A stretch of DNA of 64,000 nucleotides from Planctomycetota bacterium (GCA_030748635.1 JASMLP010000147.1:81268-145267), one strand, 5' to 3'; counted from the first letter of the stretch, positions 11,201 through 64,000 are shown. Numbers and translations: made by a program. Notes: generated from the letters alone by a model not told the origin.

Positions 11201-12598
11201 ATTCGACACATCGCGATGAACCCCCAGATCGAGGTCCATATTGCCGGACGAAAAGTTCCCCTGGATGACTCTTTCCGAAAAGCGCTGTCCGAATCCCAAC
11301 AAGCTCTCTGGGATCAAATTCAACCTCAGGGACATATCGACATCGACGCTCGAATCCAGAAAAGTCGATCGTCCTCCCTTTTAGCCACTCGAATTCAAGT
11401 CATACCCCATAAGGTCACAATCTGCGCAAGCGCATTTCCCTACCCCCTGACCTTGGAGTCGGGAAAGTTGGTTATCGGCCCCGGCACGACCCGATTAAAG
11501 GATCTTCGGGCCACCCACGGTTCCGCCGTTTTCGAAGGATCTCTCCAACTCGGACTCCACGAAAAAGGATCGAAAATCTCAGGTCAATGGACCGGCAAGA
11601 ACATCCCACTGGACAACACGCTCCGCCAAGCGGTCGAAAGCTACCGCCCTGGGCTCTGGGAGAAGTGGAAGCCTTCCGGAAGCCTGAAAACCGTTGAACT
11701 CTCCTTTGAAACATTCCTGTATCCCGACCGCCCCAATCACACAACTCTGGAGCACCTCCTGATCGTTCCCACCTCCCTCACGCTGGATGGGAACATTCCT
11801 CTCCGCGATTTCGAGGGAACCCTGACCGCTTCGGGGAGTCAGATGGGAAGCCTGACGAATATTCACGGACATTTTCTGAACGCTTCGTGGACACTGCGTG
11901 ACGACCTCTCGATCAAGAACGTCAAGGGCCAGTTCAAGCTTCTTGACGACAACTTATGGGTGGACAGATTCTATGGTGAGTTGGCCGATGGAACTCTCCG
12001 AGGACATGCCCAGATTCAAATACGAGGGGACAGTCCTTCCCGAGGTGAGGTCCGATTTCACAAGATCAACATCGCCAAACTTACCGAATCGTTCTTCCCC
12101 GAGGAAGAATCACGCCCCGCGCTTGCGGGAAAACTTGGAGGACGCATATCACTACGCGGTTTCCCCGAAAACCTGGACTCCCTCACAGGTAATGGTTGGA
12201 TCGAAGTCCAAGATGGACATTTATGGGAACTACCCATTTTCATCGGAATTTTCGACATCTTCAGCCTTCCCAGAAAATCGGCCTTCCATCATGGGGAGTT
12301 GGAGTTTACGCTAAGTAATCGATCGATCGATCTTCGAAATATCACCTTTGAATCCTCACCACTTAAAATCAACGGCGGAGGCGTCCTCGACCTGGAGGGA
12401 CAAACCGACCTCTACTTTGTCTCCACCCTTGCACCTCGGCTAGCGCCTCGAATTCCTGTACTCTCTGGAGTCTGGAAAGACCTGAAGAAAAATATCCTCC
12501 CACTTCACATTTCCGGGGACATACGAGACCCTTCAACGACCATCGTCCCCTTACGATTCGTACAGAAAAAAACTTCCCACAATAACGAGAAGGAATGA
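8285..12598 (+). CDS. Giant AsmA-like envelope protein
   Basis: 1437 aa, single N-terminal TM, beta-rich repeats, C-terminal LTGNGWIEVQDGHLWELPIFIGIFDIFSL...ISGDIRDPSTTIVPLRF typical of AsmA-like C-terminal regions. Alternative ATG at 8306. Confidence 0.75.
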   Translation: MPGPQIIMYRRSLATLAGSLFLVFTLVVGYIYYGILKNPEWLGDQFQKQVTRYFRSQVEVQQVTADHAGGLVRILGLRVADQDRPDAIPFIEVGELRVQHTATTIDEIDTIHLIKPRVHIETNEAGEWNFLRLMRFDQPEAVSPGRLPKISLSGATLHVSHSSLLREEKEHTIRRFHLNITPNQKSRDYTLRGRFHDTLLGECRFHGNWNLDTGQVRIELVFGDISISEDAVDQLRPDLSLILSRIGPRSRAELRATLNYDPRKTPQLKVSTNLHFWSGYAHWGPFSFAEMNGSAEYSGGIGGELTIGDLVGRIGQAHVRIRGRVSDVGKTNGFHISFRVDESAPDKLIQNLFPDPLPFKLPHFGPKETLRVEGTVQRTSSKNAPVILAVKSRRMKGAGGWNGLKTLVDLQAELEIEENRTTGQATMNWQGFQIGLEGSLDRIPDRGVAIQAHARGIEMGPQLYDLLAPRTKKVWNEINPRGPIDLTLAIDPPSPDKNAVVSRTRIDIQFQGIQAYLHDTPYELEDIRGTLQVRFPDIKIKSITARHGNTRIRAPSGTFRFHGPHLVPISLDVEADDIDLDEELFAALKDEPRQFIRKFRLSGEADGVLKIRRDRRTGRKRIVIHGQLREVAFRHKKFPFPIRDCSGTVLITDEEVSAAGHPLGYINPSRSQQPILTVRSDLKMRMNEGSEIQARIHLQQDELRSQPGKDVDDSRFLLDIDARGVRMTQESFAILSPKLEEIGKFEAPNNLFDMRIEVYQPWSDPARINLSLHPRNISILPTEFPYPIDSLDGEIHFDETGIGWARLQGRHGQTLLTITSPNPWKRDRILSRSGKPITQALDFSFENVTLDESFRQALSPSLQKDWDQWSPTGKMDLNIRLIRERSLPLEDPFLDQLNTLVSRIGVLPLPKISWIRHEPTIDAFCRDVNIQYEALPYPLQNIRGRVHFENNNIDIPELRGRHEDAEWALAGGIRHIAMNPQIEVHIAGRKVPLDDSFRKALSESQQALWDQIQPQGHIDIDARIQKSRSSSLLATRIQVIPHKVTICASAFPYPLTLESGKLVIGPGTTRLKDLRATHGSAVFEGSLQLGLHEKGSKISGQWTGKNIPLDNTLRQAVESYRPGLWEKWKPSGSLKTVELSFETFLYPDRPNHTTLEHLLIVPTSLTLDGNIPLRDFEGTLTASGSQMGSLTNIHGHFLNASWTLRDDLSIKNVKGQFKLLDDNLWVDRFYGELADGTLRGHAQIQIRGDSPSRGEVRFHKINIAKLTESFFPEEESRPALAGKLGGRISLRGFPENLDSLTGNGWIEVQDGHLWELPIFIGIFDIFSLPRKSAFHHGELEFTLSNRSIDLRNITFESSPLKINGGGVLDLEGQTDLYFVSTLAPRLAPRIPVLSGVWKDLKKNILPLHISGDIRDPSTTIVPLRFVQKKTSHNNEKE

Positions 12599-13461
12599 TG
12601 AGCCTGACAGTCACCTGTTCTTGTGGCAAGAAACTAAAAATCCCTGAATCCAAACTGGGCAAAAACCTCAAATGCCCCAGTTGCGGGGAACGACTCCCCC
12701 AACCGGAAGCGGAGAAAAGTCAGTCCCCAAAATCCTCTACGGTTCGATCCAAAACAGGGTCCTCTCCATCCCGTAGACGCAGCGCCGCCTCCTCTCGATC
12801 CAAGAAATCTGCGACTCCGGAAAAAGCATCTTCAGCCCGATCTCGTCGCAAGAGTCGAGTCACCAACAAATCGGAAGAAGCGAGCGAGACCCCCAACGCC
12901 CGCTCCGCAAAAACCAGTGGCCGTTTGCGAGAATCATCCTCCAAACGAGGCAAACCAACCACCGCCCCATCGAAGCGCATGACATCCAGTCGTCGCAGTT
13001 CTTCTGAAGCGGGAGAAAAACGGACCAGTTCGCGAGCTCCCCGCTCAAAGCGAACTCCGGCGGTTTCGGAACGAGGCCGCAGCGTCCTGGCCACGGCCGA
13101 GCCGGAAATGGGACTGCTATACACCGCGGCTCTCGGAGGAACCACCCTCCAGATTCTGACCTTTTTGGCCATCATCGGAGCCTGCTTTGCCGACCCCGAC
13201 CTCCTCTCCCCGGCGGGATTTTTAGTGGAGGACTCGAACCGCCTGATTCTGGTCGGCCTGTTCGGACTCTTCGCGTTAGTCTCCCTCTCCTCCTTCGCAT
13301 CTCTTTTCACCGTGTGGAAGAGCGCCAAGCGTAATTCTCGACAATCTCCTGCCGCCTCGATGTCCAGTTCGCCCCGTGCTGATCTCATGGAGGAACCAGA
13401 GGGTGAGTTTCCTTCGGCGAACGATGCAGAAGACAGTGACGTCGAAGACATCGACATCTGA
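12595..13461 (+). CDS. Zinc-ribbon protein with RS/K-rich disordered region and TM helices
   Basis: CSCGKKLKIPESKLGKNLKCPSCG zinc ribbon, long S/R/K linker, two TM segments. Start overlaps previous stop (ATGATGA). Confidence 0.75.
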   Translation: MMSLTVTCSCGKKLKIPESKLGKNLKCPSCGERLPQPEAEKSQSPKSSTVRSKTGSSPSRRRSAASSRSKKSATPEKASSARSRRKSRVTNKSEEASETPNARSAKTSGRLRESSSKRGKPTTAPSKRMTSSRRSSSEAGEKRTSSRAPRSKRTPAVSERGRSVLATAEPEMGLLYTAALGGTTLQILTFLAIIGACFADPDLLSPAGFLVEDSNRLILVGLFGLFALVSLSSFASLFTVWKSAKRNSRQSPAASMSSSPRADLMEEPEGEFPSANDAEDSDVEDIDI

Positions 13462-13503: not shown

Positions 13504-15099
13504 GTGAAGATCAAATCGGAACGGAATGGATTCTCCTGGGTCGAAAAACTCCGCTTCCTGCTAACGACGCTGATTCGACCTTTCGTCGATTTTTATTTCA
13601 GCTCCGGGTTATCCAAATCCGCGAGCATGGCCTATCTCATTTCGGTCAACATCGTCGTACTGGTCTATCTTGTTTATCCTCTCGTAGGTGGACTGGGAAT
13701 CGGGCCATTCTCCAACTCCTCCGACGCAAAACGATTCATAGAACTGAACTTCCTCTGGCCCACCCCAAACCGAACCGTCATTCTGGAGGCGCCGCCGGGA
13801 TTTCCCCTTTCTCGAGGTGAGATTGTTTCCGAAAAGAAACTACAGGAAGCCAAAATCGAATTTCAGCACCAAGGCGGTTTCCTAACGGAAGGAGAACTCC
13901 AGAAACAAGAGTTCTCGGTAACCAAAAACCTGGGCCACATGACCACCGAAATACTCGGAGCTTTTCACGATGGTCCCAAACTTCCTGTTTACGGAGCGGT
14001 CCTTCTCATCGCATTCGCATACGCAGGCCTCATCGTCAGCGTCCGAACCACTCTCCTCGAGGTCCATAGTCCACTCGAAGTCATACCCATCAGCCATCGA
14101 CAAAATCAATTCCGAAGACTCCTTTATCGCCTTCCGGAATGGATCACTCTCAAATGGGTTGGAATCGTTTTTCTTTTTCTCCCTATACTCGGCGCTATCG
14201 TCTTGCTGGTTCTCTCCGCGCTTCAGGGAGTCATCGACGGAATCATCAAACCCTACGGCCCCTACGATACGATCAACACCACCATCCATTCCCTGATTTC
14301 AGTTTCCCTTTCCACAATCGTATTTTCCTTTATCTATACCCGGGTTGTTTCAGACCTCAAACTGGAGCACGCTCTCGCGGGCGCACTCTTGGCCAGTTTG
14401 CTCTGGCTGGGCGGTCGATGGCTACTCACCCAGTACATAACCGCCAACCTGGTCAGAAACTTACGGAATCTGGCTCTCGTGCCGATCCTCTTGACCTGGC
14501 TCTATTATCTGTGCGCTATTTTTCTCCTCGGCCTACATATCGCCCATACTCTCGAATACAAACACCTCTCGGGTACTGCCCGAGACTGGATTCTTCGCTG
14601 GATCGGTCGCCCACACCGATTTGCCGCCTTGACCGGCTGGGTCAAACTGGAATTTCTGTTACAGCTTGCCGAAAATCACCAAAAAGGAGATGGGACGCCT
14701 GGTCTTTTCGTTTCTCGAACCATGTACGGAGACCTGGCCGAAACCATCGCCAAGAAGATGCAACTCCCTCTCCCCATGGCCAAGGAATCCATCAACGAGT
14801 TAGTCACCGAAATGATCGATCGATCGATGGTACGAGTTACCAAAGAAGACAAAGGGCATCACGTCACCCTGATCACCCCACCCGAACAGATCGACCTCTC
14901 ACGCCTTTTAGACACCCGCCTGGATGAAATGAAAATGGTCCGTCAGGAAATGTTTGGACTTCCCGAAGCTCTTTTTCTGGCCAACCACTATTCATCCGGA
15001 ACGATTACCGGAGGCGGGACTCTGGCCCAATTACTCCAGGTTCGAAAGAGTGGCCTGGAAGAATCCCCGCCCCCTTCCTCCGAGATACCGAACTCGTGA
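13504..15099 (+). CDS. YihY/BrkB family membrane protein with C-terminal winged-helix-like region
   Basis: GTG start; VSVSLSTIVFSFIYTRVVSDLKLEHALAGALLASLLWLGGRWLLTQYI...PILLTWLYYLCAIFLLG is the YihY family signature. Confidence 0.8.
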   Translation: MKIKSERNGFSWVEKLRFLLTTLIRPFVDFYFSSGLSKSASMAYLISVNIVVLVYLVYPLVGGLGIGPFSNSSDAKRFIELNFLWPTPNRTVILEAPPGFPLSRGEIVSEKKLQEAKIEFQHQGGFLTEGELQKQEFSVTKNLGHMTTEILGAFHDGPKLPVYGAVLLIAFAYAGLIVSVRTTLLEVHSPLEVIPISHRQNQFRRLLYRLPEWITLKWVGIVFLFLPILGAIVLLVLSALQGVIDGIIKPYGPYDTINTTIHSLISVSLSTIVFSFIYTRVVSDLKLEHALAGALLASLLWLGGRWLLTQYITANLVRNLRNLALVPILLTWLYYLCAIFLLGLHIAHTLEYKHLSGTARDWILRWIGRPHRFAALTGWVKLEFLLQLAENHQKGDGTPGLFVSRTMYGDLAETIAKKMQLPLPMAKESINELVTEMIDRSMVRVTKEDKGHHVTLITPPEQIDLSRLLDTRLDEMKMVRQEMFGLPEALFLANHYSSGTITGGGTLAQLLQVRKSGLEESPPPSSEIPNS

Positions 15100-16907
15100 A
15101 CCGAGGCCAAGTGGTTCGCGCCATAGAGTCGGACGACAGGTGGCGCATCGTGGTCGAGGACCACTTCTGGATCTGTCCCTTCTGCGGAGATGCATCGGCC
15201 CGATATCGAAGCTCTCCCCGAGACATGGCCCCTGAAATTCTCAACCACCTCCAGCGAGAGTGTCCAAAATGGGATCGGGGAGACGGGACCATCTTAGAAT
15301 CCCAACACCTTCTTCTCGCCGCAGAATCCTTTCACATCCGTCACAAAATCTCCACCGATCCACTCTGGAGAATCGTCGATTCCCGAAAGGTCTGGTACTG
15401 CCCACATTGTGCTTTACCGACCCGCGGTCGCTTTTCTTCTTCAGGAGCAGCCGACTCTCAAACCATTCACCTCATCCGGGGTCACCTCGCGCAATGCACT
15501 CTTTGCCAGGAAGGCGTCCTTCAGCCCCCACTGCACCTTCAGGTTTCTTATCACATATGCAATGAACCCACCTGGAGGCATTTCACGCGAGATCGAGATT
15601 GGGTCTGCCCATTCTGCGCCCAAAAAACAGGTGTCCTCATCGACCCTGACCTGAACATCACCACAGCGATGGTAGAAAAAGCGGCGAAACATCTAGGCCG
15701 ATGTTTTGCCTACAAAAGGCCTGGAGCCATCCACTGCTCCCGAGAAGAACTCGAGACCACAGTACGCGCCGAGAACCAGCTTGTTACCTGGAAACCCAAG
15801 ATCGCGAAGCTGCTCCAAAATGACCCGGTTTGGTCTGTAACCATCGACGATGCCATATGGGTCTGCCCCTTCTGCCGTAACCGTATCAACCACATTCGCC
15901 TTACCAGTCCTCTGGTACGCCAAGAAACATGTCCTCAGCAAATAACCACCCATTTGATCAACCAGTGCCCCGCCTTTCGACAGCAGAAGTCACCCGCAAC
16001 CACCGAGGATGAACTCCGGCATTCGATCTCCAGCCAACACCTTTCCCAAAAGACGACAGCCCCTCTCCAAAATAGCGAGGAATTCAAGGAGGCCCAAAGC
16101 AGTACGCTTTTGACCACAATTTCTCAGGAGATCGAAAGCCTGAAAACCCTGGTTACAAATCAAGAGGGGATAGAAAAAAGCCTCGAAGAAGCTCGAAAAA
16201 AGCAACTTCAGATGCTTCCCGACCTTCCCCAGATCGAGGGATATCAATTCCTGGCCATCTACCGTCCATGCGACAAGGTAGGTGGAGATTTCTACGATTT
16301 TCTCGAAGTAGGCGAACAGAAAATCGGCATTTTGATCGGCGATGTCAGTGGACACGGCATGGATGCCGCCCTCGTGATGGGTATGACCAAGAAGCTTCTC
16401 AACATCTATGCGCGTAGACGGTCCAATCCAGCCGAGGTGCTCTCCATTGCCAACGAAGACATTCAAAACGACCTGGATCAAGCCACCTTCGTCACCACCT
16501 TCTATTCGATCCTCGACACAAAAAATCGTTCTCTTTCCATGGCCCGGGCCGGACACAACCCCCTGATCCTTTTCAATCCGAAGCGAAACCCCACCATCCA
16601 GACTCTTCAGCCTCCCGGCATGGCGCTGGGTATGACCGGGACCGCAAAGTTCGATCAAACCCTCGAACACATGACTCTCGATCTACAATCGGGAGATTGC
16701 CTTGTACAGTTCACCGACGGCTTGACCGAAGCGATGAATCACCGTCAAGAAGAGTTTGGACTTCCTCGACTTCTGGAGGTCATCCAGCGTTCGGGGACTC
16801 AAGAGCCGGAGTACCTCGCCTTCCAGATCGATCGAGCACTGGAGCGATTTGGAGCGCTCGAATCTTCCGATGACGACATCACCATTCTGATCTGTCAAGT
16901 CCAGTAA
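15096..16907 (+). CDS. SpoIIE-type PP2C phosphatase with four N-terminal C2HC-like putative zinc modules
   Basis: GTG start overlapping upstream TGA. Four W-x-C-P-[FH]-C...HL...C repeats, coiled coil, then YRPCDKVGGDFYDFLEV..GDVSGHGMDAALVM..ARAGHNPL..TDGLTEA..DDITILI. Confidence 0.88.
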   Translation: MNRGQVVRAIESDDRWRIVVEDHFWICPFCGDASARYRSSPRDMAPEILNHLQRECPKWDRGDGTILESQHLLLAAESFHIRHKISTDPLWRIVDSRKVWYCPHCALPTRGRFSSSGAADSQTIHLIRGHLAQCTLCQEGVLQPPLHLQVSYHICNEPTWRHFTRDRDWVCPFCAQKTGVLIDPDLNITTAMVEKAAKHLGRCFAYKRPGAIHCSREELETTVRAENQLVTWKPKIAKLLQNDPVWSVTIDDAIWVCPFCRNRINHIRLTSPLVRQETCPQQITTHLINQCPAFRQQKSPATTEDELRHSISSQHLSQKTTAPLQNSEEFKEAQSSTLLTTISQEIESLKTLVTNQEGIEKSLEEARKKQLQMLPDLPQIEGYQFLAIYRPCDKVGGDFYDFLEVGEQKIGILIGDVSGHGMDAALVMGMTKKLLNIYARRRSNPAEVLSIANEDIQNDLDQATFVTTFYSILDTKNRSLSMARAGHNPLILFNPKRNPTIQTLQPPGMALGMTGTAKFDQTLEHMTLDLQSGDCLVQFTDGLTEAMNHRQEEFGLPRLLEVIQRSGTQEPEYLAFQIDRALERFGALESSDDDITILICQVQ

Positions 16908-18974: not shown

Positions 18975-20459
18975 GTGGGGCCTTCCACCCCCTTGGTAAA
19001 CCGATCACTCCAGAGCTACCATGTACATGTGCTTCCGCGACAAATTTCCTTCGAAACCGAAATCGGAACCCTCCAGATCACATGGAGTCAACAAGGCATC
19101 CGAAGCCTCCATCTGCCCACAAAGCCCCAGAATCCTTCCCCATCCAACCCGACCTCTCTTCCTGGGACGATTCGCCGACTGATTCACTCCTTGATACGCT
19201 GGAGCAAGGGAATCAACACTCGATTTCCGCTCCTTCCTCTCGACCTCGACGGTTATAGCCGCCTCGAAAAGGAGGTTTATCATGCCACCCAGCAAGTGGC
19301 ATGGGGTCAAGTCTCGACCTACGGCCAAATCGCGCGTGACATCGATCGTCCGCGCGCCGCACGAGCCGTTGGGCGTGCCCTCGGAAAGAATCCGATCCCT
19401 CTCCTCATCCCCTGTCACCGCATTCTCACCAGCACAGGATCCATCGGCGGATTCAGCGCTCCAGGAGGCATTCCTAGCAAATATCGGCTACTAGCCCTCG
19501 AAGAGGTGTTCGTCCCACAAGAGGAGTTGCGCCGATCGGCACTTCGCTTGACACCTCCAGAAAATTTTCATCTGGAAAACACCGTAACCAGTCACGGATG
19601 GTTCGACCTCTCCCCTTTCCGGTGGCAACACCAACGAAAAACCCTGACCGTTCCCTTTCATCTAACCAATCAAAAAACGACAACCGCTCAGATCCGTCAA
19701 TCTCCACGTTCCGGTTGTCTCCAGATTCACCTGTACCACACAACCGCCGAACTCCAGCCCGACAACCGCAAAAGTCTTCGTCGTTCCCTGAAACGCATGT
19801 TCCAGTTCCACCAAGACATCGATTCTCTCGAAAACCTTCGCGATGAATTTCCGCACTTGCGAAAAATCTTGAGCCCCAGACGAATCCGACTACTTGCCGC
19901 TTCGTCGGTTTTCGAAGACGTGATCAAAACTCTCGCCACCACCAACTGCTCCTGGAACCTGACTCGACAGATCACTCGGTCCCTGGTCCATGAACTGGGT
20001 TACGACGCGCCCGGTGGTTTACGCACATTTCCCACCGCCTCGACCCTAGCCCGAACCCAGGAGTGTTTTTTACGACAGTCGATTCGTGCCGGATACCGAG
20101 CTCCTTTTATTCTCGAACTAGCTCGCCGAGTCGATGCTGGGGAAATCGACCCGGAATCCTGGCCTCACCCCGAACAAGATCCGGCGACTGTTCGCCATCA
20201 AGTTTCGTCCATCCGAGGGCTAGGTCCTTATGGAACTTCCCATCTGATGCGACTACTCGGCCACTTCGAAGAACTGAGTATCGACTCGTGGTGTCGACGA
20301 AGATACCGTACACTCTTTCCTCACCGAAAACATTCCGACTCGGCCATCAATAAGCATTACCAGCGCTACGGAAAGCTTCGAGGACTTGTGTTCTGGCTCG
20401 AACTGACCCGCGACTGGCACGATGCGTCAGGACGTTTTGTGCTCTCCAACATTTCATGA
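18975..20459 (+). CDS. MGMT (O6-alkylguanine-DNA alkyltransferase) fused to HhH-GPD (AlkA/OGG-like) DNA glycosylase
   Basis: MGMT part: GQVSTYGQIARDI..RAVGRALGKNPIPLLIPCHRIL. Glycosylase part: SSVFEDVIKTLATTNCSWNLT..FPTASTLA..GYRAPFILELA..SSIRGLGPYGTSHLMRLLGHFEELSIDSW. Confidence 0.8.
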   Translation: MGPSTPLVNRSLQSYHVHVLPRQISFETEIGTLQITWSQQGIRSLHLPTKPQNPSPSNPTSLPGTIRRLIHSLIRWSKGINTRFPLLPLDLDGYSRLEKEVYHATQQVAWGQVSTYGQIARDIDRPRAARAVGRALGKNPIPLLIPCHRILTSTGSIGGFSAPGGIPSKYRLLALEEVFVPQEELRRSALRLTPPENFHLENTVTSHGWFDLSPFRWQHQRKTLTVPFHLTNQKTTTAQIRQSPRSGCLQIHLYHTTAELQPDNRKSLRRSLKRMFQFHQDIDSLENLRDEFPHLRKILSPRRIRLLAASSVFEDVIKTLATTNCSWNLTRQITRSLVHELGYDAPGGLRTFPTASTLARTQECFLRQSIRAGYRAPFILELARRVDAGEIDPESWPHPEQDPATVRHQVSSIRGLGPYGTSHLMRLLGHFEELSIDSWCRRRYRTLFPHRKHSDSAINKHYQRYGKLRGLVFWLELTRDWHDASGRFVLSNIS

Positions 20460-23868: not shown

Positions 23869-23978
23869 CAAGAAAATTGTACGTTCCCTTTCTCTCACCA
23901 CAACCCAGTCCTTGATGGACCCAAGCCCTCACCCGACCTACAATGCGGAGCCACAAAGCAGGCCTACCCAAAAACCAG

Positions 23979-25844
23979 ATGCCCACCCATACCCAACCCA
24001 ACGAGCCGGAGAAACCTCGCCAGAAGGAGCTAGAGCTTCTGGCCAATGTCACCGAACACCTGACCGCCGGTCGAGACTCGGATACGTTTCTGGACTCGAT
24101 TCTTGAAGGCGCTACGGAAGTACTCGATGCTCAAAGAGGATCCATTCTGGTTGTTGATGCCCCTCACGATTATCTGAGCATGCGAGCCGCCCGTGGCATC
24201 CCTGAGGATATCCAGTCCCGAGTTCGAGTACATCCCGGCAAAGGCCTTGCGGGAAAGGTTGCTCTGACGGGAGAACCCATATTCATTCAAGATATTCAGA
24301 CGCAAGATAATCGTGAAAACGGAGAAGATCGATCCGGCTACAAGGATCGTTCGGCCATTCTCCTGCCACTCAAGATTTCGGGACGCGTTCTTGGAGTGAT
24401 CAACTTCAACAACAAACGCACAGAATCTTTCAACGAGGAAGATTTCCGCATTGCCCAGGTGATCGCCAATCAGGTCGCCCTCGCTCTCCATCAAGACGAA
24501 CTCCTGAGGGAACGTTTAGAAAAAGAGAGGGCCCAAAAGGATCTCTCAACCCTCACAGAAGATTACGCCAAGCTCTCCGGTCGTCTTTCCGCCCTCCAGC
24601 TCGTCACCTACGTCACCGACCATCTCGTTTCGGACCCTGATCTCCAGAATGTTCTGGAAATGATTGTCGAACAATCCACTCGCTTACTCGATGCGCAACG
24701 CGCCTCGATCATGCTCTTCGAAGAAAACTCCCAGGTTATGAAAATTCGAGCCGCCAAGGGTGTTCCCGAAGAAATCATGGAAAAAGCCCGAGTCCAACCG
24801 GGTCAAGGAATCGCCGGCCAGGTGGTCGAAACGGGTGAGGCTTTGTTGATACGGGATATCGATGAGTTTCTCTCTGGAAAAACGGACACCGACGCGAACA
24901 ACTCCTCTTACCAGACCAAATCGGCCCTCTGCATTCCCTTAGGTGTACGACGTTCCATCTTCGGTGCTCTCAACCTCAACGACAAAAAGGGAAATCAGAG
25001 TTTTACCGAAGAAGACCTCCTTCTGGGTCAATTGATCGCGAACCAGGCCTCGATCGCGGTCCACAACGCCAAGCTGACCGGAAGCTTTCTCGAGAACCAG
25101 AAGATTCGCCAAGCTCTCGATATCGCCAAAACCATTCAGCAGCAATTTCTGCCCAACCAGGCCCCCCAGATGAAAAACATCGATCTTGCCGGTCGTTCCA
25201 TCGCCTGCGACGCCATTGGTGGTGACTATTTTGACTATTTCCCCACCAATGACTCTCAAGTTGGAATCGTAATCGGCGATGTTTCAGGTCACGGCATCGG
25301 CGCGGCCCTGGTCATGGCAACAGCTCGTGCATTTTTAAGAGCGCTGAGTGGACTCTCTACCAACATCGGAAAAATCTTTTTCCGCGTGAACAACCTGCTG
25401 TCAGAAGACACCCGAGACGACAGCTTCATGACCCTATTCCTCGGCACTCTGGACACCGATTCTGGTTGCCTCCAGTACGCGTCGGCAGGGCACGACGCCC
25501 CCTTGCTATTCCGAAAATCGGCCGGAACAGTGGAAGAACTCATGAGTACGGGTCTTCCCATGGGAATGGTCGAAGATATCGACTATCCCACCGCAGAGGT
25601 CTCCGGTCTCGCCCCAGGAGACACGCTTCTCTTTTCCACCGATGGAGTCTGGGAAGCCCGAAACAAGGAGAAGGAAGCCTTCGGCCGCCCTCGCCTGAAA
25701 CAACTCCTGATCGACCTCTCCGACCACTCTTCCGAAGACATCGTGAACCGGGTTCACGAACACATTCTCGAGTTCTGTGATGGCATACCGATCAATGATG
25801 ACTTCAGTCTTGTTGTTGCCAAAATCCAGGACAACCAAGCTTGA
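23979..25844 (+). CDS. Tandem-GAF SpoIIE-type PP2C phosphatase
   Basis: Two GAF domains (LLDAQRASIMLFEENSQVMKIRAAKGVPEEI; preceding similar copy) plus DAIGGDYFDYFPTNDSQVGIVIGDVSGHGIGAALVMA...YASAGHDAPLL. Confidence 0.88.
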   Translation: MPTHTQPNEPEKPRQKELELLANVTEHLTAGRDSDTFLDSILEGATEVLDAQRGSILVVDAPHDYLSMRAARGIPEDIQSRVRVHPGKGLAGKVALTGEPIFIQDIQTQDNRENGEDRSGYKDRSAILLPLKISGRVLGVINFNNKRTESFNEEDFRIAQVIANQVALALHQDELLRERLEKERAQKDLSTLTEDYAKLSGRLSALQLVTYVTDHLVSDPDLQNVLEMIVEQSTRLLDAQRASIMLFEENSQVMKIRAAKGVPEEIMEKARVQPGQGIAGQVVETGEALLIRDIDEFLSGKTDTDANNSSYQTKSALCIPLGVRRSIFGALNLNDKKGNQSFTEEDLLLGQLIANQASIAVHNAKLTGSFLENQKIRQALDIAKTIQQQFLPNQAPQMKNIDLAGRSIACDAIGGDYFDYFPTNDSQVGIVIGDVSGHGIGAALVMATARAFLRALSGLSTNIGKIFFRVNNLLSEDTRDDSFMTLFLGTLDTDSGCLQYASAGHDAPLLFRKSAGTVEELMSTGLPMGMVEDIDYPTAEVSGLAPGDTLLFSTDGVWEARNKEKEAFGRPRLKQLLIDLSDHSSEDIVNRVHEHILEFCDGIPINDDFSLVVAKIQDNQA

Positions 25845-33935: not shown

Positions 33936-35231
33936 TCAAACCTCGAGCATCCAGAGTTTTTCGAAGGCCTTGACCACCATTCCCATCTCCCGATAACGCC
34001 GATTCAGATCCTTGGCCATCATTCTCTGACAAATCCGAACCACCTCTTCTGGAATGGTGAAGTCTATTTCCTCCAGCGGTTCGGGCTCCTCGTGAGCCAC
34101 CTTGTGCAAAATTTCTCCGGGACTATTTCCCTGAAACGGACGCTGACCGGAGATCATGTGATAAAAGGTGGCGCCCAGGGAGTAGATGTCGGTCTGTGGG
34201 GTAAGAATATCGGTCTGAGTGATCTGCTCCGGAGCGATGTAGCTCGGTGTTCCGACAATACTTCCCTCCTTTTCGTCCTCTTCCCCGATCTTCATGGCCA
34301 ACCCCAGATCCAGGATCTTGGCAATACCATCCGGCCGAATCAGGATATTTTCCGGTTTGATGTCCTGATGTACCACATTGTGGCCATGCATATGCTGCAA
34401 CGCCTTGGCCATCTGCACAACGATATCAGCGGCACGAGGAACCTGAAGACGAGTTTCATCATAAAGGATTTCAGCCAAACTGACCCCTTCGACAAACTCC
34501 ATCGAATAGAACAACTGCCCGTCAAGATCGCCGATATCGTGAACGTGAACCAAATTCGGATGATTCATCTGACCGGCCAATGTCGCTTCCGCCCGAAACC
34601 GCTCGACGACCCGTTCATTTCCCACACAATCAGATTGCATCAACTTGACCGCCACGGTCCGGTTGAGGCCGATTTGGATCGCTTGATAAGTCACCCCCCA
34701 GGCCCCCTCACCCAGCACATCCCCCAGTTGGTATCCAGCCAAAACCTGCCCCGTACGATATTTTTTGACCGACGAAGGTCCACGGGCCTGTCGCAAACGG
34801 CCATTTATACGTCCCTCGAAAATGATCGACTCGCGAATGGAAAGCAGATCATCCAGACCCACCTTTCCTTGGTCGACCAGGCGGCCAGCCATCGGAATCC
34901 ACTCCCCCCGCTCCCGGGCCGCGTCTCGCAGATTCCGAACCTCCTGAGCTTCTTCGGGAGAGATACGTTCCTCCTCACAAAGAATCTCGATCAACTCCTC
35001 ATCTTCCCAGCGTCTGAGGAGACTTTTCGCACCTTCCAGTAACGACTGGCAAGCCGATTCTTCGACCATGCCTCGTTCTACCAGGATTTCCAGTAATGGA
35101 CGTGGCGGATTGTAGAATTCCTGGATCTCGAAAGCTCGATCGAGATCCTCTTCTTCAAGAACCTTTCGCTTGATCGATATGGCAGCAATCAAGCCTTCGA
35201 TTATTTTCTGACGTTTGTCGTCTTTGCCCAT
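33936..35231 (-). CDS. PknB-type Ser/Thr protein kinase with N-terminal helical domain
   Basis: LGEGAWGVTYQAI..VAVKLM..MEFVEG..HGHNVVHQDIKPENILI..KILDLGLA..GTPSYIAPEQ..DIYSLGATFYHMISGQRPF. Start trimmed to MGKDDKRQ. Confidence 0.88.
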   Translation of the reverse strand: MGKDDKRQKIIEGLIAAISIKRKVLEEEDLDRAFEIQEFYNPPRPLLEILVERGMVEESACQSLLEGAKSLLRRWEDEELIEILCEEERISPEEAQEVRNLRDAARERGEWIPMAGRLVDQGKVGLDDLLSIRESIIFEGRINGRLRQARGPSSVKKYRTGQVLAGYQLGDVLGEGAWGVTYQAIQIGLNRTVAVKLMQSDCVGNERVVERFRAEATLAGQMNHPNLVHVHDIGDLDGQLFYSMEFVEGVSLAEILYDETRLQVPRAADIVVQMAKALQHMHGHNVVHQDIKPENILIRPDGIAKILDLGLAMKIGEEDEKEGSIVGTPSYIAPEQITQTDILTPQTDIYSLGATFYHMISGQRPFQGNSPGEILHKVAHEEPEPLEEIDFTIPEEVVRICQRMMAKDLNRRYREMGMVVKAFEKLWMLEV

Positions 35232-35296
35232 GTCCGTCACTGGGACGAGGATACCGACTCCTTTTGCAACCGAAAAGACTTCCTCATGAGAGGTTT

Positions 35297-36250
35297 TCAG
35301 TCCTTTCGGCTCAGAACACTTTCGATACGCTGAAGAATTTCGTCCGGAAGCTCGATACTTGCGGCTCCAACATTTTCTGTCATCTGCCGAGGCGACGTTG
35401 CTCCCACAATCACACTGGCCACTTCGGGGTTTCGTAAACACCAGGAAAGCGCTAACTGAGCGAGGCTACAGTCCATCTCTTGGGCAATCTCTCGCAATTC
35501 ATCTACCATCGCCAGATTTCTCGGAGTCATTCGTGGCAACAGAAACTGATTGATCGACTCATTGGATGCTCGGCTTCCGTCGGGGATCTTTCCTCCGGAA
35601 TACTTGCCCGTCAACACCCCCTGAGCTAACGGACTGAATACAATCTGACCCACGCCCAGCCGAGCTGACACCGGAAGGATTTCCGCTTCTATGCTCCTGT
35701 CGATCATATTGTATGGAGGCTGATTGGAGCGAAGTGGATGACTCCGAAAGTGTTCAGAGCATCGAACCGCTTCCGAAATTTGGTCTGCGCTCCAACAACT
35801 GACTCCCCAGTAGAGGATTTTCCCCTGCCGACAGAGATCGTCCATGGTTTGAACCACCTCAGCAACCGGCGTTTCGGGATCGTATCGATGGCATTGATAG
35901 AGATCCAGATATTCGGTTTTCAGCCGACTCAGACTGGCGTGAACAGCTTCGATCAGATGCTTTCGACTCAGACCACGATCATTGATCCCGTCAGACATCG
36001 GCCAGAAACACTTGCTCGCAAGAACCAGATCTTCCCGACGATACTCTTTCAGCACCTCACCCAAACACGTTTCGGCTAGCCCTCGACCATAAATATCCGC
36101 CGTATCGTAAAAATTGACTCCGGCATCGTAGGCCGTTCGAACGATTTCGACGACTCGGGACTTCTCAACAGTCGTCCCGAAAGTAAGCCACGAGCCCAGA
36201 CTCACGACACTGACTTTCATGCCCGATTCACCCAATCGACGATACTTCAT
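35297..36250 (-). CDS. Aldo/keto reductase
   Basis: MKYRRLGESGMKVSVVSLGSWLTFG, NFYDTADIYGRGLAE, LASKCFWP, IVGATSPRQMTEN. Start trimmed. Confidence 0.9.
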   Translation of the reverse strand: MKYRRLGESGMKVSVVSLGSWLTFGTTVEKSRVVEIVRTAYDAGVNFYDTADIYGRGLAETCLGEVLKEYRREDLVLASKCFWPMSDGINDRGLSRKHLIEAVHASLSRLKTEYLDLYQCHRYDPETPVAEVVQTMDDLCRQGKILYWGVSCWSADQISEAVRCSEHFRSHPLRSNQPPYNMIDRSIEAEILPVSARLGVGQIVFSPLAQGVLTGKYSGGKIPDGSRASNESINQFLLPRMTPRNLAMVDELREIAQEMDCSLAQLALSWCLRNPEVASVIVGATSPRQMTENVGAASIELPDEILQRIESVLSRKD

Positions 36251-62057: not shown

Positions 62058-64000
62058 GTGGACCCACTCCGCAATGACCAGATTCTCGTGTTACTGATCC
62101 AACGCAAGGATTTGATGGATTCTCAAGCCCTTCAGGATTCTCTCGAAGAATCGAAGCGTCAGGGGATCCCGTTGCTGCATAACCTTCTCGATCGAAAGGT
62201 GCTCCAAGAAAACTCTCTGGAAAACCTTCGAAAGGAGGCGAAGGAGCTGGCCTTAGTGTACGAATCCACCATGGAAATCGATACCCGACAACCTCCGATC
62301 AAACAGAATCCCGAGCCTCCCGATCTCGTCGCTATTTTCGACACCTCCCATTCCGACCTGGAAACATCTATCGAAAGTCGGACCGATGGCCTTCCGCTGG
62401 ATGCCCCGCCCAAAGAGTTCGGCAACTATGAACTGGAGTCCGAAATCGGCCGCGGTGGAATGGGAATCGTGTTTCGAGGCCGCGACAAGAAATTAGGTCG
62501 ATCCGTTGCCATCAAGGTAATGAATCCACCACCAGGACTGACCAAAGAGGAGCGTCGCAACGCGTTCCACCGATTCGAGCGGGAAGCGAGTCTCACCTCT
62601 CAACTGACACACCCAAACATCGTCCCCATCTTCGAGTCAGGTCAACAAGACGGGTTTCACTTCATCACCATGGCATTCATCCAGGGAGAGTCTCTTTCTT
62701 CTTTGATGAAGCAAAAGCGATTCAGCCCCATGGAAGCGGCGGAACTCATTGAGCCGATCTGCCGAGCCCTTGCGCACGCGCATTCTCAAGGAGTGATTCA
62801 CCGCGATATCAAACCCTCCAACATTCTCGTCGATCAATCAGGAACCCCCTACCTCGTCGACTTCGGACTCGTACGATCTATTTCCAACCTCACCGACCTG
62901 ACTGTCACCGGCATCATTCTGGGAACACCTCGATACATGAGCCCCGAACAAGCCGCGGGAGAAAAAGACGAACTCGGCCCCCGGTCGGATCTCTATTCTG
63001 TCGGCGTGGTGCTCTATGAACTGGTAACCGGCACCCCCCCTTTCAAAGCCAAGTCGATTCTCGAACTCCTTTCGCTGATCGCCAACTATCCCTGTCCGGA
63101 CCCAAAAGTAAAAATCCCCAGTCTCCCCGAAGAGATGCGCACGATTCTCTTGACCGCTATCGCCAAGGATCCCGCAGATCGTTACCCCGGTACCCGGGCC
63201 ATGGCTGATGATCTGAAGCGATTCCGAGAAGGGTCTCCGATCAAGACATCCCCTCCTCCGCCGCCAACCACCACCACTCCCATCCATCCGACTCGCATCA
63301 CGAGACTCCCATTCGTCGTAGGAACTGTAAGCCTTTTCGTGGCCATCGTCTTCGCGACTCTCTTCTTTACATCTCCCCCCCCCAAACAGCCCGCCACCGT
63401 CGATCCTCTCCAAACGTTGATTTTTGGAGTCCACCCTTTTACCGAAAAAAAAGCCATCGAGAAAGGGTACGGCACCCTGATCGACCACCTCTCGAAAGCT
63501 TGCGACACCTCCATCGAGCTCGTCATCTGCCCCAACTACGAAGAGGTTGTTGCAAGAATCACCCAAGGAGAAGGAGGCATCCACCTCGCCCTGCTTTCGG
63601 GATACAACTATGTTCAAGCTCATTCCCGTGAACCCGATCTGAAACCGCTAGCTCAACAAGTCCGAGGAGGCCAAGCCTTCTACCACGGAGTTATCATCAC
63701 CCAACAAGACTCCTCGATCCGTACTCTCGAGGACCTGAGAGGAAAACGTTTCGCCTTTGTCGACCCCAACTCGACCTCCGGTTATGTGTTTCCCAGAAGC
63801 TTGATTCGAACCCAGGGCAAAGATCCGGACGATTTTTTTCGAGAGATCCTTTTCTTCCGCTCTCACGACAAGGTCCTTCAAGCCGTTCGCGAAGGGAAGC
63901 AGGTCGATGCGGGCGCTGTTTTCGAAGGAGCCCTTGACGAAGCTCCCGAGGTCCTTCGCGCTGAGCTTCGACGGCTCGACAAGCTTCGCACCGACCCCAT
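62058..64000 (+). CDS. Transmembrane Ser/Thr protein kinase with PhnD-like extracytoplasmic binding domain, 3'-truncated at window edge
   Basis: Frame 3 is open from GTG 62058 to the window end. IGRGGMGIVFRGRD, GVIHRDIKPSNILV, YLVDFGLV, GTPRYMSPEQAAG, TM at about 63306..63375, then LQTLIFGVHPFTEKKAIEKGYGTLIDHLSKA...LALLSGYNYVQAH...LEDLRGKRFAFVDPNSTSGYVFPRSLI. Confidence 0.88.
   Translation, partial: MDPLRNDQILVLLIQRKDLMDSQALQDSLEESKRQGIPLLHNLLDRKVLQENSLENLRKEAKELALVYESTMEIDTRQPPIKQNPEPPDLVAIFDTSHSDLETSIESRTDGLPLDAPPKEFGNYELESEIGRGGMGIVFRGRDKKLGRSVAIKVMNPPPGLTKEERRNAFHRFEREASLTSQLTHPNIVPIFESGQQDGFHFITMAFIQGESLSSLMKQKRFSPMEAAELIEPICRALAHAHSQGVIHRDIKPSNILVDQSGTPYLVDFGLVRSISNLTDLTVTGIILGTPRYMSPEQAAGEKDELGPRSDLYSVGVVLYELVTGTPPFKAKSILELLSLIANYPCPDPKVKIPSLPEEMRTILLTAIAKDPADRYPGTRAMADDLKRFREGSPIKTSPPPPPTTTTPIHPTRITRLPFVVGTVSLFVAIVFATLFFTSPPPKQPATVDPLQTLIFGVHPFTEKKAIEKGYGTLIDHLSKACDTSIELVICPNYEEVVARITQGEGGIHLALLSGYNYVQAHSREPDLKPLAQQVRGGQAFYHGVIITQQDSSIRTLEDLRGKRFAFVDPNSTSGYVFPRSLIRTQGKDPDDFFREILFFRSHDKVLQAVREGKQVDAGAVFEGALDEAPEVLRAELRRLDKLRTDP

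Follow-up and report, generated by a model that had tools for sequence, protein, structure and literature searches.

Tandem C2HC zinc-finger-like modules as a probable protein-docking input of RsbU-like phosphatases and pseudophosphatases in Planctomycetota

The RsbU/RsbP/RssB-type PPM phosphatases combine a SpoIIE-type PP2C domain with four metal-binding Asp residues, a helical linker near that domain, and an input that is a REC, PAS or GAF domain or the four-helix domain of RsbU. Across RsbU-type phosphatases with diverse N-terminal domains, ordering of the helical linker dimerizes the catalytic domains, and E. coli RssB is a catalytically dead PPM adaptor that works by protein contact (PMC12143880). 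The E. coli protein has a REC input and no zinc modules. Here, we describe a gene in a 64,000-nucleotide stretch of DNA from a Planctomycetota bacterium (GCA_030748635.1 JASMLP010000147.1:81268-145267; hereafter, the window), which belongs to a draft genome of 4.25 Mb in 217 contigs that is 93.7% complete. The window protein has the four metal Asp of the RsbU/RsbP/RssB type and a predicted linker in the corresponding place, but, as the original prediction proposed, an array of C2HC-type putative zinc modules takes the place of the usual PAS, GAF or REC input. We found no STAS, RsbW or stressosome gene adjoining the window gene, which, in lacking an adjacent STAS or RsbW gene, also differs from the RsbU/RsbP/RssB-type systems. 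In itself, the joining of an unusual input to a SpoIIE phosphatase varies a theme that is already known.

The gene (15096-16907, + strand) encodes 603 aa; the interval first assigned to the feature, 15096-16005, covers the repeat half but stops short of the 3′ end of the gene. All four repeat segments quoted in that prediction match the ORF letter for letter. They correspond to repeat 1 at 15120-15272 (aa 9-59; C27, C30, H51, C56; W16, W25; repeat HMM E 6e-15), repeat 2 at 15345-15503 (aa 84-136; C102, C105, H130, C134; W91, W100; E 1e-14), repeat 3 at 15552-15713 (aa 153-206; C171, C174, H199, C203; W160, W169; E 4e-16) and repeat 4 at 15810-15977 (aa 239-294; C257, C260, H286, C291; W246, W255; E 1e-16), all on the + strand. 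The proposed spacing of about 75 aa is exact between the first two knuckle Trp (aa 25 and 100) but not between those that follow (aa 169 and 255), where it is 69 and 86. Following the array is a predicted helical linker (16098-16229, +; aa 335-378), which ends in E-A-R-K-K-Q-L-Q-M-L-P, a motif common to the active relatives in our alignment; a full-length AlphaFold2 model built from two sequences, poor at pLDDT 43.6, places helices at aa 332-354 and 356-372. The C-terminal half is a SpoIIE-type PP2C domain (16284-16901, +), matching PF07228 over aa 407-602 (E 9.5e-46; 156.6 bits against a Pfam cut-off of 25), and the proposed fusion is thus borne out. Its nearest PDB sequences are those of P. 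aeruginosa RssB (3es2/3eq2). The catalytic columns of the alignment hold all four metal-binding Asp, namely D398 (GGDF), D416 (GDVSGHG), D541 (TDG) and D594 (DDxT), and the phosphatase should therefore be active. It is probably cytoplasmic, since no 19-residue stretch of the protein reaches a Kyte-Doolittle value of 1.3.

The GTG start of the phosphatase gene overlaps by 4 bp the TGA stop of an upstream gene for a BrkB/YihY family membrane protein (13504-15099, +; PF03631, E 7.8e-18). In our neighbor clusters, this gene is not kept beside relatives of the window phosphatase, and the two are therefore probably unlinked in function. Elsewhere in the window, a second SpoIIE-domain protein, without repeats, is encoded 7 kb downstream (23943-25844, +). 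Judged by eye, the ORF at 18975-20459 (+) fuses an MGMT-like alkyltransferase with a PCHR motif to a HhH-GPD-like DNA glycosylase domain. The product of 12595-13461 (+) has a motif resembling a zinc ribbon at its N terminus, together with a long stretch rich in Ser, Arg and Lys and a hydrophobic segment.

The four-repeat pattern is far beyond chance. A leave-out profile trained on homologues, with the window and its closest relative excluded, recovered repeats 1-4 at E values of 2.9e-11, 2.4e-13, 3.4e-15 and 2.6e-13. For comparison, every other window ORF stayed at 0.7 or above, and 2,000 shuffles of the protein's N-terminal half gave no E value lower than 0.036. Among cellular genomes, we surveyed the family in 392 from Planctomycetota, where a three-repeat profile finds it in 63 genomes and in 48 of 267 genera; a single-repeat profile finds nearly the same set (65 genomes), the extras being weak or interrupted matches. 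Profile searches of plasmids, phages and viral contigs found no member. The 77 stretches that we fetched, together with the window, yielded 265 repeats in 90 proteins from Planctomycetota, with one to five repeats per protein. By the SpoIIE profile, 80 of these 90 have a phosphatase domain C-terminal to the repeats. Contig ends truncate most of the other 10; clear exceptions are L028 and L035, which have three repeats and no phosphatase, and a kinase fusion described below.

Among the aligned repeats, Trp and Pro are each present in 262/263, and the ligand columns are filled by the first Cys in 233/263, the second Cys in 226/263, His in 240/257 and the last Cys in 246/246. The aromatic residue three positions past the last Cys is invariant where that column is filled (195/195). 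His and the last Cys are spaced as H-x3/4-C in 231 of 233 repeats, and the second Cys and His are separated by 17-34 residues, rarely more. The full CCHC set is intact in 224 of 263 repeats, in agreement with the expectation that homologues would conserve these positions. The repeat had not been recognised as a named domain, and we likewise find no covering family in Pfam or NCBIfam and no match in a PDB sequence search. A full-text search of open-licence literature, in which most subscription journals are missing, found no paper that treats zinc fingers, SpoIIE and Planctomycetes together, and the repeat family, along with its metal-less variants and its pairs of active and dead members, appears undescribed.

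Modeled alone with AlphaFold2, using an alignment of seven other repeats from the window and L068, repeat 4 is predicted with confidence to fold by itself (pLDDT 87.5) as a helix, a short helix bearing the first Trp, a hairpin with the knuckle, a long helix ending at the His, the Cys and a final short helix. Foldseek returned no significant match to this single-repeat model (best E 3.3 in the PDB and 0.57 in the viral library). BIR domains were the most frequent weak neighbors in both libraries (TM of about 0.3-0.4), and Pfam BIR does not appear among the families listed for the repeat. BIR domains are tandem C2HC zinc modules that act as docking domains, and their ligands are spaced H-x6-8-C. 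As the H-x3/4-C of our repeats departs from this spacing, the predicted resemblance is a lead and no more. The zf-Sec23_Sec24 finger (PF04810) has a similar knuckle, and its summed score over the window repeats exceeds the Pfam cut-off. We reject it as the family of the repeat: the match covers about 16 residues at W-x-C-P-x-C (profile positions 17-33 of 39), leaving the H/C half of PF04810 unmatched, and is a likely source of misannotation.

The C2H2-like fingers, such as BED, Di19 and the C2HC finger of RNF125, share with the repeat a knuckle on a hairpin and an H-x3/4-C spacing of the last two ligands where a helix is about to end, and all three give weak local matches. This element order, together with weak scores against zf-BED and Di19 in Pfam, would suit an array that binds nucleic acid or the ribosome and takes the phosphatase to a nucleoprotein substrate. 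The arrays are also mildly basic (median pI of about 8.6-9.1), and at least six loci have a gene for the ribosome-assembly GTPase RsgA immediately upstream of the five-repeat gene. At L075:5509-6573, L078:4568-5956, L031:9649-10968 and L086:4453-5463, the gap is a few bases, making a possible operon tied to ribosome assembly. However, the RsgA linkage is confined to some families, active members are near neutral in net charge, averaging +1.3 per 100 aa and spanning -5.8 to +6.2, and no nucleic-acid-binding family matches significantly. We therefore consider nucleic-acid or ribosome binding quite unlikely as the role of the array. The repeat differs from the C2H2-like fingers in its extra N-terminal helix and its longer variable middle (mostly 17-34 residues); the C2H2-like finger profiles give no significant match to it, and zf-BED and Di19 stay below curated cut-offs with partial coverage in the window protein.

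Variation at the metal site bears on whether the array is a sensor. The knuckle Cys are incomplete in 37 repeats, of which 30 lack both, seven lack only the second and none lacks only the first; such joint loss fits a single metal site to which both Cys contribute. The C-P-x-C mostly gives way to D/N-P-F/Y-S/T/N or S-P-x-S/T. These motifs suggest that a hydrogen-bonded Asx-Pro turn substitutes for the metal knuckle, and the Trp and Pro are retained. Zinc-ligand substitution among zinc-finger homologues has a precedent in the RING-like domain of alpha-COP (PMC4678705). Repeats with W-x-D-P-F-S-G or W-x-N-P-F-N-G occur in subfamilies that have all four catalytic Asp, and in a two-repeat subfamily, both repeats are metal-less while the four catalytic Asp are kept. 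From the sequences, metal would thus be unneeded for the role of the module in these proteins, and the presence of metal-less repeats beside intact active sites suggests that the metal of the module, most likely a putative zinc, is structural rather than sensing.

According to the sensor explanation, loss of zinc or oxidation of Cys would unfold the modules and switch the phosphatase. Zinc-cysteine redox switches such as RsrA and Hsp33 are precedents, CCHC sites are conserved in most members of the family, and most active relatives keep their ligands. Yet subfamilies lacking all or most ligands still have the four catalytic Asp, and fully dead phosphatases keep every ligand, which would be needless for sensing an absent activity. 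We accordingly regard a metal or redox sensor as unlikely.

In the alignment columns, at least 16 members of the family have lost catalytic Asp, having for example AGGVLG for IGDVSG and FTNGLL for FTDGLT; L122, a further candidate, was left out of this count on account of an alignment gap. These pseudophosphatases come from 15 genomes, and for 13 of the 15 the loci that we read include an active member as well. All 14 of the three-repeat pseudophosphatases retain all 12 ligands. Eight loci (L022, L023, L031, L071, L072, L075, L078 and L086) have a five-repeat gene with a three-repeat pseudophosphatase gene next to it on the same strand, although both genes look dead in L086. In the window genome, the pair is on separate contigs, consisting of the active window gene and the dead G000:C194 (L027). 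A conserved third gene between active and pseudophosphatase genes was considered and dropped, as inspection found a GNAT-like gene at one locus, a QueD-like gene at another and none elsewhere. Genes for an ECF sigma factor and a FecR-domain protein lie downstream of the active/dead pair at L023:3809-5873 and L031:2214-4033. In a quick tree of the last three repeats, which has several long branches, the dead state takes five changes, and since the well supported branches force at least two of these, catalysis has probably been lost more than once in the family.

Comparison of the eight genomes with both kinds of protein separates the fate of the repeats from that of the enzyme. Active members average 44% pairwise identity over the repeat region and 63% over the SpoIIE domain, whereas for dead members the averages are 42.5% and 38.5%. 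Identity is higher in the repeats than in the SpoIIE domain for 25 of 28 dead pairs and for 0 of 28 active pairs; these pairs share genomes and are hence non-independent, but they point almost uniformly the same way. Within the window's order, for which G001 (contig JACQVV010000011.1) was the sole relative of the window genome in our search, the identities of repeats and SpoIIE domain are 43.8% and 60.4% for active and 41.0% and 38.1% for dead members. Because the repeats are constrained in dead proteins while the SpoIIE domain decays, they appear to have a selected function independent of catalysis in the same chain.

This constraint also weighs against the array being a rigid dimerization element or spacer without a specific partner, comparable to other N-terminal dimerization domains of RsbU. 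Such a role would accommodate the variation in repeat number from one to five and the disappearance of metal sites from proteins that keep their active site, and N-terminal dimerization is required by RsbU-type phosphatases (PMC12143880). The strong constraint in the pseudophosphatases and the existence of L028 and L035 as three-repeat proteins without a phosphatase nevertheless point to a function of the repeats' own, making a pure spacer distinctly improbable. Nucleic-acid or ligand binding would fit the constraint as well. With the module recurring across the phylum even on phosphatases without an active site, the array is probably a protein-docking module rather than a metal sensor. Of the two roles originally suggested, the multivalent binding scaffold thus fits better, as the repeats are fully constrained in pseudophosphatases and subfamilies have lost ligands yet kept the fold residues and the active site, while the metal- or redox-responsive sensor is unsupported.

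The module is not tied to a single enzyme, as is evident from a Ser/Thr kinase domain in three metal-less repeat proteins of one family (L121, L192 and L195). In L121:3921-6299 (+), a single ORF contains metal-less repeats, the kinase (E 5.8e-49) and a partial SpoIIE domain, and it adjoins an active two-repeat phosphatase gene. Two Hanks-type Ser/Thr kinase domains in the window (33936-35441, -, and 62058-64000, +) resemble the L121 kinase (E of about 1e-41 to 1e-43). In frame upstream of the likely start of the window protein's closest relative, L021:8886-9068 (+) encodes KYRLLREVGRGGMGAVH, which resembles the N-lobe of a Ser/Thr kinase and is possibly a remnant. Neighboring Ser/Thr kinases were dropped as a functional link, being too numerous in these genomes, with at least about 125 per genome. 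A role in anti-phage defence was likewise set aside, as the phosphatases have no PADLOC match and the kinase fusion matches kinase models solely through its kinase domain. Across loci, we found no universal neighbor of the repeat-phosphatase genes; neighbors vary by lineage, and in a family other than those with RsgA, a metallophosphatase gene lies upstream and a PP2C_2 gene downstream (10 loci). The window genome has 18 SpoIIE, 11 RsbW-like and 13 STAS matches over cut-offs, and partner-switching substrates are thus available.

On balance, we lean towards an RsbU-like phosphatase with a C2HC docking and assembly array, in which the linker sets the dimer state, dephosphorylation follows assembly and dead paralogues join. 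A docking role is suggested by the constraint, by the occurrence of the repeats in tandem, by their fusion to more than one kind of enzyme and by the dead paralogues. In the arrangement that we infer, from zinc binding and docking function to partner, substrate and linker mechanism, the window gene would encode an RsbU-like Ser/Thr phosphatase of the cytoplasm. Its input, at the N terminus, would consist of four zinc-finger-like modules, each predicted to run from a helix through a W-x-C-P-x-C knuckle, set on a beta-hairpin, to a long helix that bears H-x3/4-C. The array would most likely be a multivalent protein-docking or assembly platform that self-associates or binds a shared partner, thereby positioning the phosphatase domain, with the helical linker setting its dimeric state. 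That the array sets the state of the linker is the simplest reading of a predicted helix and E-A-R-K-K-Q-L-Q-M-L-P motif located where the linker of RsbU/RssB sits. Assembly would then lead to dephosphorylation of a phospho-protein, which may be a STAS-type anti-anti-sigma factor or another phospho-Ser/Thr protein, and dead paralogues with the same modules, such as G000:C194, may join the assembly as decoys or regulators. E. coli RssB is a precedent for a dead SpoIIE-type domain like those of our pseudophosphatases; unlike E. coli RssB, the repeat family has dead and live paralogues that coexist, often in tandem. We put forward only tentatively a wider planctomycete platform, in which C2HC-derived arrays, zinc-bearing or secondarily metal-free, would bring live and dead phosphatases together in a single regulated complex, joined in one lineage by Ser/Thr kinases, with dead partners having evolved more than once.

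With these proteins, the range of inputs known for PP2C phosphatases gains a domain family not yet catalogued, and does so in a phylum where phospho-signalling is abundant. The active/dead pairs, together with the natural losses of the metal site, offer ready comparisons for the purpose of a zinc site in a signalling module, and the pairs do so too for the origin of pseudophosphatases. If the array is a docking platform, the family would make the multivalent assembly of phosphatases tractable in a bacterial system.
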